8,246 nt of DNA, taken from positions 1 to 8,246 of the forward strand of contig JAJRZV010000053.1 of the NCBI GenBank assembly GCA_024275095.1, read 5' to 3'. Shown here one piece after another: positions 1 through 8,246 of the stretch (position 1 is its first letter; each line of letters opens with the position of its first letter). The notes under the pieces are model-generated. The model made no database searches and was not told the DNA's origin. It was given only the letters and a program-made list of their open reading frames with translations. The translations under genes were made by a program, and so were the position numbers. This stretch comes from a bacterium (GTDB lineage Bacteria; JAJRZV01).

Positions 1-1762
1 CAAACAAATACGCATGGGAAAGTGCTCTCACTGTGGCTGTCCGGGGGGTCGAAGTGAGAAAAGCCATCTCTCCAAATATTTCCCCTTCACCCAGCACAGA
101 CAATCGCGCCTCATTTTTCAAAACTTCAACCTCACCCTCCAAGATAACATACAGATCCTGGCTCTCTTCTCCTTCTTCAATAATCACTTCCCCAGGATTA
201 AGATTCTTGAGAGCACCGTGCTTCATAATTTCTCTTAGAAGCTCAGGTTCTGCATTCCGGAAAATAGGATTGCTGGAAAGCACCTGGGAAAGTCGTACAC
301 GCCATTTAAAGGTTTCAGCATCCATTACGGACGCACGAAGCATTTCCCAGAAATCCTCTTTGGCCACCCTCAGAACAATACTTTCATCAAGAGCTTTCAC
401 CGTCGCCGTGCGGGAACCCTTTTCTATAAGCGCAAGCTCTCCAATGCCTGCAACAGGCCGTATCTCTGTTATCAATGTCTCATCCCCAGAAGGATGTTCG
501 CGGTATATCCCAACCCTTCCCTTAACCAGCACGTCAAAGTACGTACCCCTTTCCCCTTCCCTCATAAGTATGGTACCTGGAGGAAATCTCAACCACTCTC
601 CTCCCTCGAGTTTGAAATTTTCAAACAGCGGATGAACTTTTACCCTGGAGGTCAACTCTCCAGATGGTTTTTCTATTCTTTTGCCTTTCTTACGGCCTGA
701 ATACCACCTGCGTACAAGCTTTATTACGCCCCCGGTAAGACCTAATAAATATCCTGCAAAACACAATAGATAAAGACCCCACCAGAGAATTACAGAGTGG
801 GGAGATGCAACTCCACTGGACACCGATTTCACCGTAACTTCATACAATTTTTGACCCCACTGGCCAAATATCCACACGGTCAGACCCAGTAACAGCAAAG
901 AAAACACGGCAAGAAATACGTAAGGCGCCTCTCCAGGATTGACACGAAACCACCGTGAATCCGAAGGCAGTATCTTGTAAATCAAACTGCTTTCTACCTT
1001 ACTGCCCATACCCTCTTCTTTGAGGAGTCCTTCCCAGAGCCACAGGCCTTCAGGGGTAAGAAAGGGAAATGCATCAACAAGTAAATTGAACAACACAGCC
1101 ACACTGATAGCAGCATAAATAACGGAACCGGATGATAAAAAAAGAATTATAACTGCAGGCAGAATGTCATACATGTAGCCGCAGAGAGCCATTTCAACTT
1201 TCTGCCGATGCGAAAGTACATCTCCGGGTTTGTGCTCGCGGACCACTCCCAAAAAACCCACCCCTTTCAGGGGTACACTGGAAGCAAGTAAATATTCCAG
1301 ATGCGAAGCCCATAAGAAATTTTTTAACGACCGCAATACCAGAAAACATGCAACAGCCATAATCAGACCTTTTGTACTGGAGAAAAGAATCTCAGGAACA
1401 AATCCTGAAGAGAAAATTTCCCAGCCGAAGGAAAGGATACCTGCCAGAAACACGGGTATTGATATGTACAGGTGTAAAGGATGAATCGGTGTCACAGGTA
1501 AAGGTACAGACAGTTTCATGAGAAGCGATGATTTAATCCCGCCTTCAGAGAGCTTGCGCTCACAGCTTTTCCAGACGGAGGATGGAAACATTCTCCATCG
1601 CTGAAAAAACGAAACGGAGTCAGGTTCACGACCTGAAGAAAGGATTTCCAGAAGTTCCAGCTCAGGAGGTGAAAGTATTATCCATTTACCATTCAAAAAC
1701 AGGGCACCGCCTCTTTGCCCTTTGAGCAATCTGGAGATACTGTTCCTCAGCGTATCTAACAT
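1..1762 (-). CDS. PqqD-like / inactive M50-like membrane protein with two cyclic-nucleotide-binding domains (C-terminus beyond window)
   Basis: 587 residues are visible and the frame is open to the left edge, so the C-terminus is missing. Residues about 18-85 resemble a PqqD-type winged domain. Residues about 95-345 hold several hydrophobic segments (near 95-117, 131-150, 195-232, 281-300 and 325-345) with the layout of M50-type membrane peptidases. Where HExxH is expected (after FL, residues 149-150) the sequence is WASHL, and the NPFxxxDGY-type motif appears as FPFLTPEGL (232-240). Both metal-binding motifs are therefore lost, and I infer that it is not a protease. Two cNMP-binding domains follow, about 376-483 and 495-587. 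Their phosphate-binding cassettes are intact: GELAL with R451-T-A, and GEMAF with R574-T-A. It probably senses a cyclic nucleotide on the cytoplasmic side of the inner membrane. The ATG at 1762 has AGG six bases upstream. It lies 69 bp after the lipoprotein gene with no terminator between them. The domain order is clear, but the role is unknown. Confidence 0.85.
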   Translation of the reverse strand, partial: MLDTLRNSISRLLKGQRGGALFLNGKWIILSPPELELLEILSSGREPDSVSFFQRWRMFPSSVWKSCERKLSEGGIKSSLLMKLSVPLPVTPIHPLHLYISIPVFLAGILSFGWEIFSSGFVPEILFSSTKGLIMAVACFLVLRSLKNFLWASHLEYLLASSVPLKGVGFLGVVREHKPGDVLSHRQKVEMALCGYMYDILPAVIILFLSSGSVIYAAISVAVLFNLLVDAFPFLTPEGLWLWEGLLKEEGMGSKVESSLIYKILPSDSRWFRVNPGEAPYVFLAVFSLLLLGLTVWIFGQWGQKLYEVTVKSVSSGVASPHSVILWWGLYLLCFAGYLLGLTGGVIKLVRRWYSGRKKGKRIEKPSGELTSRVKVHPLFENFKLEGGEWLRFPPGTILMREGERGTYFDVLVKGRVGIYREHPSGDETLITEIRPVAGIGELALIEKGSRTATVKALDESIVLRVAKEDFWEMLRASVMDAETFKWRVRLSQVLSSNPIFRNAEPELLREIMKHGALKNLNPGEVIIEEGEESQDLYVILEGEVEVLKNEARLSVLGEGEIFGEMAFLTSTPRTATVRALSHAYLF

Positions 1763-1831
1763 CTTTTACCTGGAAATGTTTTCCTCAAAAAGGAGAACAA
1801 GTTCAGTCCCCTTTAATACCGTGCCGACAGA

Positions 1832-4800
1832 TTACGGTCCCAGTTGAAGTATAAGCCCTGACAAGCTCTCAAGTATCATCAGGTTCTCTGGACCGGTAAA
1901 ATATATATCCGTGACTAAAGGAAAGGCCGCATTATAAGCCTTAACCCCGGTAAATCTTAAAGCGTTTTCTCCTGTGCCAGCCACCCTTTTCAACCGTCCC
2001 TGATTATCAATGAGCCAGATTGAAGAACCGCCTGTGAGGTAATAAGTCCCACAGGGAGAAAGGTGAAATTCCACGTTAACAAAATACAGCAATCCATCAG
2101 GACCGATCTCAATATCAGTAATCAGTCCCAGAGGAGACGCCAGCGCATCCTCGCCTTCGAGCGGAGTGTTCTTCACCAGTGGACTCTGCGCCATCTTAAT
2201 ACCAGCAGTAATTGTTGAATTTCCATTTCCCTGAGCTTTCACACTCATCACCCCGTTTCCAGCAATGGTAAACAACTCACCGGTGGAAAGGTCTATGGCT
2301 TTAATCGCCGTGTACGTAATTCCAAGGGGGCTGTAACTGATAAATTCACCAAAATACAATACATTGTATCGTTCATCGTATTTAAGGGCAGTAACAGGCA
2401 GGTAATCATACAAATCCAACACCAGGGAAGCACCTGTCGCTGGACCGCTGTACGTGACTGTATCGGGGAAAACAGGAGCCCCGATAGCTCCCCCTATGTG
2501 ATTAAGCGTTCCGGAAGAGTCTGTTTCAAATATTAAACCGGTAAGTGGATTTTCATAACTGGGTATCCCGGCCAGGAAAAAGATTCTTTTACCACCCGGG
2601 TCTATTTCTACAGGCCCTAAATTTGGAAAGTAAACGGTAGAGGCATCAACCCCGGGAGCTGGCGATGCTGCACCCGATACCGAACCAACCACGGAATAAA
2701 CTTTGCGGGACGAAAGGTCCACACCTCTTATAACACCATTGTCCGGGTCAGCAAACAAAATATCGGCGAAAATGCCACCCGTGATAACATCGTTGAACGG
2801 GTTGGAACCCACCGCACCAACACCTGTAATCTCATCAAAGTAATAAACATCTGTAACAGCTACCAGATAATACCTGGAATAATCGCCCATCAGGGAATTA
2901 ACCGTTCCTTCTTCAGGGTACACAACACGCATGGTGCCCCAGGACCGTCCCTCCAGTACGTAATAAACATCGTTCAACTCCAGGGCACTCGAAGGTGTAT
3001 CTATGTAAGCCTCAAGTGCACTGTAACCGTCTCCGCCAGAGCGTAAATCGGAAACAGCAGAACCGGCTACGATAAAGACAGTGGCTGAAGGCGGATAGGT
3101 GCTCAGGTCCACACCAAACAGCTTTCCGTTGGTATTATCTGCGACAAACAGGATCCGTGTGGTGGGATCAAAAGCTAATGCCTCAGGTGCCCAACTTATA
3201 TCGTGAACGTCAACACCTTCGGTACCTGCAAATATACTGCTGTTGCCCGTACCAAAAATATCCACAGCACACATTGTTGCTCCGTCCAGAACAACTATTT
3301 GATTGGCCCCCGAATCAGCCACGTAGAGCCGTACAAGTTTTCCTGCTGTATCATATTCTGCAACAAGCCCTTCAGGACTCATAAACGTCAGGTCTGTCCC
3401 ACAGGCACCGCTCGTTGGGGCACCATAAGCACCACTACCGGCAAGCGGCATGATTTGAGTGACGGGGTCTGCAAACTCTATCTTGCGAATGATGGAATTC
3501 CAGGTATCACTCACAATTATTCCCGTGAGAGAACCTGAAGCATCACGCAGTGGTATAATTTCTCCAAGCCATAATAACTGCACAGCGGTAGCTGGACCGG
3601 AATAGAGAGGATTGCTCGAGGTATCAGCCCCCCCAGCCACCACAGTTGAAGTGCTAGACGAAAAATCCGGAGAAAACTCTACGGCAACAATATCGTACAG
3701 CCCGAAGTCAGAAATAAACAGTGTCCTTGAAACTTCGTCGTAGTAGAGAACCATTGGCGCAGGTCCGGGAGCATAGGGACTCAACTCCTTTGGAAAGGCC
3801 CCGTAAACCTTTCCCCATTTGCCTACAACAGGATCGTACATCATCACAACACCGCTCACAGTTGAAACAAACACGCGCCCCCCGGAAAAGCGAATAACAT
3901 CATTTACCCCTGCAAGAGGAAAATTTAAGAAGCCGGGGCCGTCCCCGGGTACAAAGCTGTTGCCATCAAATACCGGGTTATATGATAGAGGAACATTAAC
4001 CACGTTCCACGCGGTACCTGCTTGAACATCTATACCCTTGACGTAACCCGTAGTTTCACCACCAGCGATATACACAAAACCCGTAGAAGGGTCAACGTAC
4101 AATCCCTTCATATTAGGAAGGGGCACCCTTCTTGCATGCTCTGGACCAGGTCCAAAAGCCCCGGCAATGCGCCGGGGAACAAAAGCGGCAATCGCCCAAC
4201 CAGCACCGGGTAAAGGAGCAACCACGTTTCCTCTCTGAAAATCACCGGAGTCAGGTATCCGGTCTTCAGCAATCTTATGACCCGAAAGCTCATAGGCAGC
4301 ACATGTACCTGCAAACCGAAAATTCCCTTCGTTGTAACCCAGGTCAGAGCGCCATACCCTGAATCTAATATCGTGCTCCAGGCTCTCAGGTATAAATTCT
4401 CCTATCTCTTTACCTCCAACCAGATCATAAACAACCCCGTACGAAGAAACACCGCTGACAAATACCCCAATGGCTACATCTGCACCGTCGAAATCACTGA
4501 TTTCAGTATCACTGAGAAATGTATTATTTATTTTCACCTCACCAGCAGTAACTCCGGTTGCGGGGTTGCTGTCCAGATCCAGAAGAATAATACAGACACC
4601 AATAACATCTTCACTCAACCATCGCACTCTATGCTCAAATACAAAACGGAAAGTTAATGCTTCAGGAGCATCGTAAATTTCCAGCCTTTCTATATCTGAT
4701 GATTCCGATACTTCACCGACGGTATCGAAAAACACACCTGAACCAGGCTCAAGCATGTCCAGTACAATTTCCCCATCTGGTGGAGGCACAGCAGAAAACG

Positions 4801-5122
4801 CCACACCTGAATAAACCCGGGTACCGGACGAGCTGTATGCATCAGCACGAAATCTGAAGCCATCACCCGAAGGAAGATACAAAGTAAATTCCTTAGAGAC
4901 AGGGCTGGAAAACGTGACGGTAGTGACATCAATACCTTCACGGTCTACATTTAACGTAAGGGAGGCAATATCGGTGATTTTTTGAGGCGCCTGGGTCATC
5001 CTGATGTTCCACTGAACTCTGTGCACATCACGATCCTTAATAAGCTCACATCCTGCAAGCACTCCGGCAAGCACAGCAATCCAGATTATTTCAATCCAGT
5101 GCCTTCTGTTCATGGGTATCAC
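1832..5122 (-). CDS. Large lipoprotein with beta-sandwich modules and NHL-like beta-propeller repeats
   Basis: 1096 residues. The N-terminus is a lipoprotein signal: two Arg (R6, R7), a hydrophobic stretch, then lipobox LAGC with the lipidated Cys at 25. Glu follows the Cys, so there is no Asp inner-membrane retention signal of the E. coli kind. Residues about 35-130 and 145-285 look like beta-sandwich modules; the second contains DLDSNPATG, which recalls calcium-loop or DOMON/CBM9-like domains. From about 338 to the end I count 11-12 propeller-type repeats. Examples are LYVADSGANQIVVLD (599-613), LFVADNTNGKLFGVDLS (658-674) and ILFADPDNGVIRGVDLS (788-804), with linkers ending in AGxG. SGPATxxxL recurs at 508 and 892, which is the GPATxAxL signature of NHL linkers. 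Twelve blades would fit two six-bladed propellers. The start is GTG, overlapping the upstream TGA (GTGA), with GAGG five bases before it; the ATG at 5113 is a poorer choice. The protein probably binds a ligand or protein partner on the outer membrane or cell surface. The ligand is unknown. Confidence 0.9.
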   Translation of the reverse strand: MIPMNRRHWIEIIWIAVLAGVLAGCELIKDRDVHRVQWNIRMTQAPQKITDIASLTLNVDREGIDVTTVTFSSPVSKEFTLYLPSGDGFRFRADAYSSSGTRVYSGVAFSAVPPPDGEIVLDMLEPGSGVFFDTVGEVSESSDIERLEIYDAPEALTFRFVFEHRVRWLSEDVIGVCIILLDLDSNPATGVTAGEVKINNTFLSDTEISDFDGADVAIGVFVSGVSSYGVVYDLVGGKEIGEFIPESLEHDIRFRVWRSDLGYNEGNFRFAGTCAAYELSGHKIAEDRIPDSGDFQRGNVVAPLPGAGWAIAAFVPRRIAGAFGPGPEHARRVPLPNMKGLYVDPSTGFVYIAGGETTGYVKGIDVQAGTAWNVVNVPLSYNPVFDGNSFVPGDGPGFLNFPLAGVNDVIRFSGGRVFVSTVSGVVMMYDPVVGKWGKVYGAFPKELSPYAPGPAPMVLYYDEVSRTLFISDFGLYDIVAVEFSPDFSSSTSTVVAGGADTSSNPLYSGPATAVQLLWLGEIIPLRDASGSLTGIIVSDTWNSIIRKIEFADPVTQIMPLAGSGAYGAPTSGACGTDLTFMSPEGLVAEYDTAGKLVRLYVADSGANQIVVLDGATMCAVDIFGTGNSSIFAGTEGVDVHDISWAPEALAFDPTTRILFVADNTNGKLFGVDLSTYPPSATVFIVAGSAVSDLRSGGDGYSALEAYIDTPSSALELNDVYYVLEGRSWGTMRVVYPEEGTVNSLMGDYSRYYLVAVTDVYYFDEITGVGAVGSNPFNDVITGGIFADILFADPDNGVIRGVDLSSRKVYSVVGSVSGAASPAPGVDASTVYFPNLGPVEIDPGGKRIFFLAGIPSYENPLTGLIFETDSSGTLNHIGGAIGAPVFPDTVTYSGPATGASLVLDLYDYLPVTALKYDERYNVLYFGEFISYSPLGITYTAIKAIDLSTGELFTIAGNGVMSVKAQGNGNSTITAGIKMAQSPLVKNTPLEGEDALASPLGLITDIEIGPDGLLYFVNVEFHLSPCGTYYLTGGSSIWLIDNQGRLKRVAGTGENALRFTGVKAYNAAFPLVTDIYFTGPENLMILESLSGLILQLGP

Positions 5123-5967
5123 CGGTACCTCATTTTAACCTTCACACCTTCAAGAGCTTTTTCTGAAGGTACAGGTTCCTGTTCCACAGGTGGAATGTCC
5201 TCTTCTGGAAGCATTCCCTCGGTTCGTGTGTTCGAAAGCGCTTTATCGCTTTCATCAAGCGCGTTTTCCACCTCACTTTCAATTCGAGCTTCACGAATAA
5301 CATTTTTCAGTATGACTTCTGGATCTACTTTCACAAACTGCTGTAAAAGCTGCCGCAATTCATCAGCTGGAATCTCCTCAGGAGGTGAGGGTGGCTGCCC
5401 CTGTTTTACATAAGTTTTCATGCCTGCCACTATTTTGAGCGCCTCTGACTCTGCTTCCCGGGCGAGAGACCTTACCTCCACTTCACCCTCGATCACCCAT
5501 ACCCCCGTATCTGTCTCTTGCGCCGAAACAATAAATCGTGTTCCTCTTACGCCCACCACAGCAGAAGGCGTGAAAATTTTAAGGGACTGCAGCGTCCTGG
5601 AAACCCGCGCAAAAAATGAAAAAACTTTACCTTTGATCAGTTTAAACACAGCTCTTTTTTCCGTATGGGTATCCAGTCTAAACCGTGCTCCTTCGCTCAA
5701 ACTGATCACAGCACCACCTTTAAGTGCGATACGCACCCGTCCCTTCTCGCATTTAATCTCATCACCTTCATAAAAGGGCGTTTGTGGCGTCACACGAAGC
5801 CACTTCTGAGTACCCGGGCGTTTCACGTACACATCACCCTCAAGCACAACCACCGCACCCACTTCACGAGGTGTACTTTTTTCCTCGGCTGCATACCCGA
5901 GAGGCAGAGCCGTCACCAGAACAGCCGTAAAAAAGGCTACAATGAACTTTACGTTAAAAATATGCAA
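5119..5967 (-). CDS. Secreted FecR-domain protein
   Basis: 282 residues from TTG 5967. A signal peptide (hydrophobic run of about 20 residues, likely cut near LGYA-A) is followed by a FecR domain. Its landmarks, in numbering from the TTG at 5973, are GDVYV (46-50), W58, EGDEIKC (69-75), ALKGGAVISLSEGARFRL (83-100), TPSAVVGVRGTRF (135-147) and VIEGEVEV (160-167). The C-terminal 95 residues are rich in Pro, Glu and Lys and probably flexible or helical. Classical FecR is an inner-membrane sigma regulator with a cytoplasmic N-terminal segment, next to FecI and a TonB receptor. None of that is present here, so this is more likely a periplasmic structural or binding protein. Two TTG codons are possible starts. 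The one at 5973 directly abuts the AGAGG, whereas the one at 5967 sits six bases after it, so I chose 5967. The gene overlaps the barrel gene by 14 bp and the lipoprotein gene by 4 bp, suggesting coupled translation and a shared function. Confidence 0.88.
   Translation of the reverse strand: MHIFNVKFIVAFFTAVLVTALPLGYAAEEKSTPREVGAVVVLEGDVYVKRPGTQKWLRVTPQTPFYEGDEIKCEKGRVRIALKGGAVISLSEGARFRLDTHTEKRAVFKLIKGKVFSFFARVSRTLQSLKIFTPSAVVGVRGTRFIVSAQETDTGVWVIEGEVEVRSLAREAESEALKIVAGMKTYVKQGQPPSPPEEIPADELRQLLQQFVKVDPEVILKNVIREARIESEVENALDESDKALSNTRTEGMLPEEDIPPVEQEPVPSEKALEGVKVKMRYR
5128..5131 (-). promoter_or_regulatory. Ribosome binding site that decides the lipoprotein start
   Basis: GAGG near the end of the FecR-protein gene is five bases from the GTG at 5122 but 14 bases from the ATG at 5113. 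This supports the GTG start overlapping the upstream TGA. Confidence 0.5.
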
Positions 5968-7378
5968 ATCCAACCTCTGCGCCCGCCAGATAGCGGATAT
6001 AATCGTAAAGACTTACGTTGGAATCGGAACGCCGAAGGGTAAAAGTACCTGCAACGTGTAGCCACGGTTTCAGATGGTATTTAACCTTGAAATCCATTCC
6101 GTACTCAAGGTCCAGGCGACTATCACCTACGCCCAGGAAAATGCTGTCTTTCAAGAAAAACCTGACCTCTCCCACCACTCCCGTAACCAGGTCAAGCCGC
6201 TTATTGAAAAAAGAACCAGAAAATTCCAGTGCAAGCCTGTCTGCGGTGTAACTCCATTGATCCTGCTCTGCCGCATTGGAAGTCAAACTATTCAAAACAC
6301 TCAACTTAACGAGTTCGTTCAGGAAGCGCAGTTCCCCACCAACCTCGAGAAAATATTGTGTCGCATCCCTGTCGAGACTCGGCAGGGGTACATCCTCATA
6401 AAATGCGGTGCGTTTCATCCCTGCGCCGAGAATATAACCCCAGTGTGGAAACAGTACCCGTACACGTCCCTGAATATAACCGCCTTCTGAATAATGGTTG
6501 AGAGACATCTCATAAAAAGAAGAAAAATAACCTCCCCACACATGCACGTGGGTATCTTTTATTACCGATTTTACATGCAGAGACACATCGTGTACCTGGA
6601 AGTTATATTTATCAGCTTTTGTGTGAACATTTTGATAAAGGCGATATGTAAAGGTGGGCATGAACACTCTCCATCTGTCCGAGTACACCCGCCCTGAAGC
6701 CGCGAGATAACCCATCGCGTCTTTTATTCGTTTTTCAGAGCCTGTGGAATCACCTGGAGAAAGCCCGGGATTAAAGTCAAACATCACTCCAGAACGTCCC
6801 GCAACCACCCAACCAAACCATTTTTGTTCTCTTTTTTTCACCATTTTCAAAATGCGGGAACCCGAAGACCGCAACTTTTTATTGGGCGCACGTGAGAGTT
6901 CGGCAGCAACCCTTCTCAACTCGTCCAGCATGTTCAAACGCTCATAAATTATTGAGGCAATAAGAAGAGCGCGGTGATAATTAGGCCCTTTTCTCTCCAG
7001 TGCATTCTCAATCCACGTGCGCGCTTCTGAATAATCACCTGCTTTAAAATACGCGAGGGCCATTAAACTCTGGGCGAGGTCTTTTGAATGGTCTGTATTG
7101 TAAGCGCTGATAAACGCTGAAACAGCCTTTGGATAATCTCCCTTCCGATTGAAACACATCCCCACCTTCACCAGTGCCGCGTACCGAGCTTCCGGCTCGG
7201 TAATACCTGAAGCATATTTCAAAGACTCATCGCAGTACCCCCTGTTAGCAGCAGCCGCGGCAAAATCCATTTCTCCCGTTGTCACAGCAGCTCCCGCAAT
7301 AACAGAGACACCGACGACCGCACTTATTACTACCAGGATAAAAAGCTCTTTCTTAGCATTCATCATTGGTGACACCAT
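5954..7378 (-). CDS. TPR plus outer-membrane beta-barrel protein, Slam-like architecture
   Basis: 474 residues. A Lys-containing start and hydrophobic run (about 11-31) form a signal peptide with possible cleavage near AGA-A. Residues about 63-165 hold three TPR-like helical hairpins, for example GDYPKAVSAF (80-89) and GDYSEARTWI (114-123). A basic linker (about 167-186) leads to residues 187-474, which alternate polar and aromatic/aliphatic residues in segments separated by turns. By eye I count 14 strands, from GWVVAGRSGVMFDF (189-202) to YLAGAEVGFAYF (463-474). The terminal Phe and its pattern match a Bam-recognised barrel signal. About 200 residues of TPR region followed by a 14-strand barrel is the layout of Slam surface-lipoprotein translocators (DUF560), and a lipoprotein is encoded two genes downstream. 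This is an architectural analogy, not proven homology; a porin-like or secretion barrel of another family is possible. The ATG at 7378 has AGAGGAAG upstream, with the AGGAAG part 10 bases before the start. ATGs at 7366 and 7363 are less well placed alternatives. Confidence 0.87.
   Translation of the reverse strand: MVSPMMNAKKELFILVVISAVVGVSVIAGAAVTTGEMDFAAAAANRGYCDESLKYASGITEPEARYAALVKVGMCFNRKGDYPKAVSAFISAYNTDHSKDLAQSLMALAYFKAGDYSEARTWIENALERKGPNYHRALLIASIIYERLNMLDELRRVAAELSRAPNKKLRSSGSRILKMVKKREQKWFGWVVAGRSGVMFDFNPGLSPGDSTGSEKRIKDAMGYLAASGRVYSDRWRVFMPTFTYRLYQNVHTKADKYNFQVHDVSLHVKSVIKDTHVHVWGGYFSSFYEMSLNHYSEGGYIQGRVRVLFPHWGYILGAGMKRTAFYEDVPLPSLDRDATQYFLEVGGELRFLNELVKLSVLNSLTSNAAEQDQWSYTADRLALEFSGSFFNKRLDLVTGVVGEVRFFLKDSIFLGVGDSRLDLEYGMDFKVKYHLKPWLHVAGTFTLRRSDSNVSLYDYIRYLAGAEVGFAYF
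5974..5978 (-). promoter_or_regulatory. Ribosome binding site that decides the FecR-protein start
   Basis: AGAGG on the minus strand lies inside the end of the barrel gene. It touches the TTG at 5973 directly but is six bases from the TTG at 5967, so it favours the second TTG. Confidence 0.5.
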
Positions 7379-7529: not shown

Positions 7530-7892
7530 ATGTCCCGAATTGAAAGAATTGAACTTTATCACGTATCCGTCCCTTTACCTGCACCGTTTTATCCATCCTG
7601 GATTCCGGGATATCCACAACGGGAAAATCGTTTAACCCTCATCAGGCTTTTGACCTCGGATGGGATCGAAGGAATAAGCGCGGGGCCGGCATTCAGCAGG
7701 GAACGAGAAGGTATAGGAAGCGTGTTGGGTCCCTACCTTCTCGGGATAAGAAGTAATGACTTAGAAACAGTGCGTCAGCGGCTGCGGGAATTATCGTATC
7801 TCGGACTGAGAAATCCATGGATAGAACCGGCTTTCTGGGACATCCTGGCAAAAGAAAAAGGACTGCCTCTTTACAGAGTGCTCAATCCTTAA
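7530..7892 (+). CDS. Mandelate racemase/muconate lactonizing enzyme family protein, N-terminal capping domain, ended by an in-frame TAA
   Basis: 120 residues forming the N-terminal capping domain of an enolase-superfamily enzyme. It begins with the typical first strand (MSRIERIELYHVSVPLP). A second strand (RLTLIRLLTSDGIEGI) follows, and a helix ends in PAFWDILAKEKGLPLYRVL, the usual lead-in to the barrel. TAA at 7890-7892 then stops the frame, although the same frame continues with barrel sequence. Known members use the capping domain to shape substrate specificity and need the barrel for metal binding and catalysis. This fragment alone should therefore be inactive. There is no Shine-Dalgarno sequence; a -10-like box ends eight bases before the ATG, so the mRNA may be leaderless. 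The gene is divergent from the envelope operon and nothing visible links the two functionally. The stop may be a true mutation, a sequencing error, or a read-through site. Confidence 0.7.
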   Translation: MSRIERIELYHVSVPLPAPFYPSWIPGYPQRENRLTLIRLLTSDGIEGISAGPAFSREREGIGSVLGPYLLGIRSNDLETVRQRLRELSYLGLRNPWIEPAFWDILAKEKGLPLYRVLNP

Positions 7893-8246
7893 TGTGGTGT
7901 AATAGAGAGTGCCCGCGTATATGCGTCAACCGGAGAGTTGCGAACAGCATCAGAACGAGATTCATATCTGCAGCAGGTTGCGGATATGGGTATTGATACG
8001 GTAAAACTCCGCGTCCATTTCCCCAGCCTTCGGGAAGATATTTCCATGGTAAACGAAATGGTTCAACGATACGGGAGTACTTTCCACTTCGGTGTCGACG
8101 CCAATCAGGGGTGGCCAGTCTCAATTATTAAAAAAAGTCCGACCTGGGACTTGAACCGTGCAGTGGAATTTGCAAAAGCATGTGGTGAGATGAATATCCA
8201 GTGGTTGGAAGAACCTTTGGATATGAACGATTACCAGGCTCTTTCA
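7893..8246 (+). pseudogene. Barrel domain of the same enolase-superfamily gene, continuing in frame after the TAA (right edge truncated)
   Basis: 118 codons are open in exactly the same frame as the preceding 120-residue part. They start CGVIESARVYASTGEL, the first strand of the modified TIM barrel. TVKLRVHF follows, with the K-x-R at the end of the second strand where general-acid/base lysines usually lie. Next comes VDANQGW, whose Asp is the first metal ligand. WLEEPLD supplies the second metal ligand (first Glu of EEP). Between the two lies a segment of about 11 extra residues compared with mandelate racemase, containing PTWDLNRA. These motifs are intact, so the only visible lesion is the single stop codon, which suggests a recent mutation or a sequence error rather than an old pseudogene. 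The third metal ligand would lie beyond the window. No convincing internal start lets this part be a separate gene. The substrate cannot be named. Confidence 0.65.

Follow-up and report, generated by a model that had tools for sequence, protein, structure and literature searches.

A recurrent TPR-barrel and FecR gene pair, possibly a distant relative of the Slam machinery, ahead of a propeller lipoprotein gene in the JAJRZV01 lineage

Do neighbouring genes for a TPR-barrel, a FecR-domain protein, a propeller lipoprotein and a cNMP-binding membrane protein form a single envelope system, and if so, what might such a system do? An earlier note on this DNA proposed a four-gene operon for the regulated display or export of the lipoprotein, with a nucleotide-sensing end in the cytoplasm. 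The window, i.e., the whole stretch of DNA analysed, is one entire contig (C15, 8246 bp) of a 2.45 Mb genome in 136 contigs, and all four genes lie on its minus strand. The ORFs of genes 1 and 2 share 20 nt. Between genes 2 and 3 there is a 4-nt overlap if gene 3 starts at the GTG at 5122, or a 5-nt gap if it starts at the ATG at 5113, which yields the more usual lipoprotein signal peptide. Gene 4 follows gene 3 after a further 69 nt. A search of Rfam returned no match. That genes 1-3 are a tightly coupled single unit is well supported, because genes 1 and 2 co-occur in other genomes far above chance.

Gene 1 (5954-7378, minus strand; 474 aa) was defined by its ORF, domain profiles and an AlphaFold2 model, and its product carries a signal peptide, approximately four TPRs, an outer-membrane beta-barrel and a C-terminal Phe. 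In the model, which was built from a 15-sequence alignment (mean pLDDT 83), helices at residues 36-185 form the TPR arm and are followed by exactly 14 strands at 188-473. The closest solved fold is CymA (Z 22.7, 3.3 Å over 278 residues) and OmpG is a further near match (Z 20.3), both being 14-stranded porins; the barrels of BcsC and PelB were also present in the Foldseek list, and no solved Slam structure was among the best fold matches. The barrels of this family can be aligned across ~285 residues and share invariant D, N, R, W and S positions. The SlipAM profile (PF04575) gave no match to the window barrel at E values up to 10 and none in the window's own genome, and it matched one of eight family barrels (E 0.0038). 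The profile of the BBP2_2 putative beta-barrel porins (PF10082), which spans the barrel only, scored the window barrel at 16.6 bits, under the curated cut-off of 23.7, and weakly matched 4 of the eight family members. When compared by HHalign, the family aligned to one bona fide SlipAM protein (L099) with a probability of 97.7% over 339 columns and to BBP2_2 proteins with 98.4%, values which place the gene 1 barrel in the same superfamily as Slam and no closer to Slam than to BBP2_2.

Gene 2 (5119-5973, minus strand; 284 aa) encodes a secreted protein consisting of a signal peptide and a FecR domain only (PF04773, 51.7 bits against a cut-off of 24, 1.2e-13). The marks of a FecR-type anti-sigma regulator were sought, and neither an anti-sigma part nor a membrane helix was found in gene 2, nor an ECF sigma gene in the window. 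Another FecR gene of this genome (L082, G000:C122, 6354-9447) lies directly ahead of a trehalose-6-phosphate synthase/phosphatase fusion.

Searches with the window FecR and TPR-barrel identified an adjacent barrel and FecR in another phylum (G041), and twenty FecR neighbourhoods held more such cases. Furthermore, the window's own genome contains a second set on contig C32 (L080), made up of a TPR-barrel, a FecR protein and a 578-aa protein that begins like a lipoprotein. Scanning the genomes of 84,980 species with a FecR alignment gave 79 named loci, 19 of which had a barrel beside FecR on a first count. Counted by ORF, a barrel adjoins FecR in 35 of 95 cases (in 26 it precedes FecR on the same strand, in 5 it lies downstream and in 4 it is divergent), which is not a population rate since the loci were picked by similarity to the window FecR. 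The association was also tested in reverse, using a barrel-only profile against 116 genomes: a FecR gene lay within 2 kb of 6 of the 15 matches, none of which had been used to build the profile, where 0.027 were expected by chance. Five of the seven new matches with the lowest E values (1.2e-10 or better) belong to the FecR-adjacent group, the other matches being mostly short C-terminal alignments to other barrels. The pair was found in Geotalea, Geobacter sp. OR-1, Nitrospira, Thermodesulfovibrio, Caldimicrobium, Nitrospinota, Binatia and relatives of Bdellovibrio; its distribution takes in Desulfobacterota, Nitrospirota, Nitrospinota, Binatia, Bdellovibrionota and unnamed phyla. Bdellovibrio-like genomes have the barrel divergent from FecR or the order reversed (L124, L166, L169, L174; L127, L128, L177).

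Gene 3 (1832-5122, minus strand; 1096 aa) was recognised as a lipoprotein gene from its ORF and a lipobox (LAGC, Cys25). The N-terminal part of the product is beta-rich and the C-terminal 760 residues bear NHL-type blades, with at least eight NHL-like blades at residues 350-802; the NHL propellers of SOQ1 and NHLRC2 in the PDB match it at 3e-5, and the Pfam NHL match by itself is under the cut-off. The order barrel, FecR, lipoprotein (or protein with a lipobox-like start) recurs at six further loci (L111, L151, L114, L109, L086 and L225), and third genes differ widely between barrel-FecR loci. A first search of genome contigs with the gene 3 lipoprotein found no relative. Residues 58-193 weakly resemble the lipoprotein at the same operon position in L111 (E 4e-4 to 6e-4, among 1,537 ORFs). 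A profile of six third-gene proteins recovers L225 at 1.7e-10, and the third genes of L111, L151 and L225 back one another in profile tests. An N-terminal cargo module common to all third genes was considered and set aside: leave-one-out profiles did not recover the proteins of the window, L080 and L086, and a common cargo domain is therefore a hint only. No Pfam domain for the eight-stranded, TbpBBD-type C-terminal cargo barrel was found when gene 3 and other third genes were scanned singly with sequence profiles.

At four loci (L118, L119, L133 and L141) the FecR domain is itself the N-terminus of a giant protein of 1377-1484 residues encoded directly behind the barrel, and Ig-like domains were found in FecR-linked giants. 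These fusions suggest that the products of genes 2 and 3 act together. In the Nitrospira genome at L133 (5505-16531), a single TPR-barrel is followed by a tandem of two FecR-giant genes (1377 and 2196 aa). At some barrel-FecR pairs the lipoprotein is replaced by a CHASE2-cyclase; such a cyclase is found no more than three genes from FecR at 8 of the 35 barrel loci, as against 10 of the 60 FecR loci that lack a barrel. As these cyclases are nearly as frequent where no barrel is present, the link belongs to FecR and not to the barrel; they were accordingly rejected as a part of the barrel machine, and cyclic-nucleotide signalling is regarded as a general feature of FecR loci. At L135 (761-5141), a FecR gene stands in a row with genes for a CHASE2-cyclase and for an MscS channel that carries a cNMP-binding domain.

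Gene 4 (2-1762, minus strand) encodes an N-terminal winged-helix-like part, approximately 5-6 transmembrane helices and two cNMP-binding domains (PF00027). Because the window is the entire contig, the gene lacks its 3' end and the second cNMP domain is incomplete (profile positions 2-72 of 89). Within the gap ahead of it, a stem of six pairs followed by CTTTTT (1811-1793, minus strand; -7.8 kcal/mol, z -1.8) was found by the terminator scan and folding energy. The hairpin is placed where a terminator would stand, and is suggestive only, since the window holds 14 terminator-like sites against 8.9 expected in shuffles. Nonetheless, with such a hairpin between genes 3 and 4, a four-gene operon is not secure. 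The 370-aa N-terminal and membrane part had no relatives in 241 genomes and no convincing Pfam match, and a cNMP-binding gene lay within three genes of 0 of the 95 FecR ORFs in other loci. For these reasons gene 4 was left out of the conserved set, and it is probably a neighbour and not a part of the machine. The opposing idea, that gene 4 is a cytoplasmic end of the machine under cyclic-nucleotide control, could draw on the 69-nt spacing on a shared strand, and on the 13 cNMP-binding domains and the CHASE2-cyclase of the window's genome; we consider it improbable given the hairpin, the lack of cNMP neighbours at the 95 other FecR ORFs and the membrane part with no homologue in 241 genomes. 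Thus the earlier note's operon holds in that all four genes exist and genes 1-3 are tightly coupled, whereas its fourth member stands behind a terminator-like hairpin and lacks an equivalent in related loci. The neighbourhood conservation that it had offered as a check is seen for genes 1 and 2, partly for gene 3 and not for gene 4, and these results do not support its regulated system with a nucleotide-sensing end.

Two other identities for gene 4 were set aside. A by-eye likeness to a pseudo-M50 (site-2 protease) found no profile support, no homologues and no PqqD match in the genome, and a single-sequence model was poor (pLDDT 53); a link to bacteriocin transport through TIGR03896 came from a match limited to the cNMP domains. 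Elsewhere in the window's genome (L228, G000:C60, 5190-8518), a gene for a CHASE2 class-III cyclase overlaps by 4 nt that of a protein with two cNMP domains, which is followed by an HD-domain protein.

What, then, could genes 1-3 do? Slam combines TPRs with a barrel predicted to have 14 strands (PMC7857515) and moves an unfolded lipoprotein with the aid of a periplasmic chaperone (PMC9090332). The window set resembles Slam and the wider T11SS (SlipAM, DUF560, PF04575) in its N-terminal periplasmic TPRs and a 14-stranded barrel of similar size, in a client gene that often adjoins and often encodes a lipoprotein, in a C-terminal pattern of R-x-D and then Y-D-Y/R-x-R ahead of the last strand, and in the distant homology detected by HHalign. 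However, it differs in that the barrel is not called by PF04575, there is no TbpBBD cargo barrel, FecR is a recurrent neighbour, and the pair occurs in Desulfobacterota, Nitrospirota, Nitrospinota, Binatia and others, whereas T11SS has been described from Proteobacteria. FecR was not mentioned in the T11SS and Slam papers searched for that word, nor was a description of the TPR-barrel/FecR pair found in the open-access literature. The pair looks like a so far undescribed distant relative of the Slam machinery.

We propose that the 14-stranded barrel would form a pore in the outer membrane with its TPR arm in the periplasm, on which the FecR-domain protein may dock as a recruiting or retention piece. 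The putative client would be the next protein, either a lipoprotein with a gene of its own (the propeller, in the window) or a giant fused to the C-terminus of FecR, and the barrel would carry it to the cell surface or anchor it there in the manner of Slam. That genes 1-3 are a unit of a widespread Slam-like display machine with FecR as the periplasmic partner is the reading we favour, tentatively and at slightly less than an even chance. It is consistent with the co-occurrence of barrel and FecR in both directions of search, the second set in the same genome and the six further loci of the same order, the FecR-giant fusions right behind barrels, and the predicted fold together with the SlipAM alignment. 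Against it, gene 3 and gene 1 lack the TbpBBD and SlipAM marks, the barrel is equally near BBP2_2 and, among solved folds, closest to diffusion porins, and the third genes are heterogeneous, with weak similarity between those of the window and L111 and with CHASE2-cyclases in their place at some pairs. A more specific version, in which display or translocation in non-proteobacterial phyla depends on FecR, which would stay on the TPR arm as the fused or partner protein passes through the barrel to the surface, is possible but doubtful. Display or export of the propeller lipoprotein, as the earlier note had it, still fits the 14-stranded barrel with TPRs, the recurrent FecR and the frequent next-gene lipoprotein or FecR-giant fusion; its regulation and nucleotide sensing are unsupported.

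FecR domains are periplasmic sensor partners in the Fec system, and the window set shares with FecA-FecR a periplasmic FecR domain beside an outer-membrane barrel. The barrel could thus sense a surface event and relay it through the TPR arm and FecR to inner-membrane partners such as CHASE2-cyclases, with the lipoprotein as surface receptor. A FecR gene beside a CHASE2 histidine kinase has been described (PMC5192318), cyclases lie near FecR at some barrel loci, and the window's genome has the CHASE2-cyclase followed by a two-cNMP-domain protein. Yet such cyclases occur almost as often at FecR loci where no barrel is present, the window holds no cyclase, sigma factor or kinase, and FecR-giant fusions suit display better; we consider a relay unlikely. 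The window also differs from FecA-FecR in having no TonB-dependent receptor and no anti-sigma domain.

We also consider it unlikely that the barrel is a specialised diffusion porin or receptor, importing a ligand caught by the propeller lipoprotein while FecR and the TPRs act as stabilisers tethering it to the wall. Propellers often bind ligands, and both the CymA and OmpG folds and the BBP2_2 relation, where homology is at least as strong as to Slam, would suit such a role, but CymA and OmpG are monomeric porins that have no TPR domain, FecR or lipoprotein partner, and the partners of barrel-FecR pairs vary widely across loci and include the FecR-giant fusions. A porin for exopolysaccharide export, like PgaA, BcsC and PelB, would have the same plan of TPRs and barrel, in keeping with BcsC and PelB in the Foldseek list. 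Since PgaA-type porins are distinguished from T11SS by their 16 strands (PMC8406197) and the window barrel is predicted to have 14, and since no polymer synthase was noticed adjoining the pair in the loci examined, this is disfavoured as very improbable.

A 2020 review noted that other phyla lack Slam homologues and took this to suggest undiscovered translocation systems (PMC7857515). The pair is a concrete candidate for the route by which lipoproteins and giant proteins are brought to the surface in bacteria other than Proteobacteria; its three-part anatomy is conserved and testable, and it is found in cultured Geotalea and Geobacter strains.

A six-codon ORF (MVWCHQ, 7383-7363, minus strand) overlaps the beginning of the TPR-barrel gene and may be due to chance; ahead of this ORF stands AGAGGAAG, which resembles a good ribosome-binding site. 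On the plus strand, a gene of the mandelate-racemase/enolase superfamily (7530-8246) runs on in contig C44 and has an in-frame TAA at 7890-7892, after which the same frame continues, as in a pseudogene or a sequence error.
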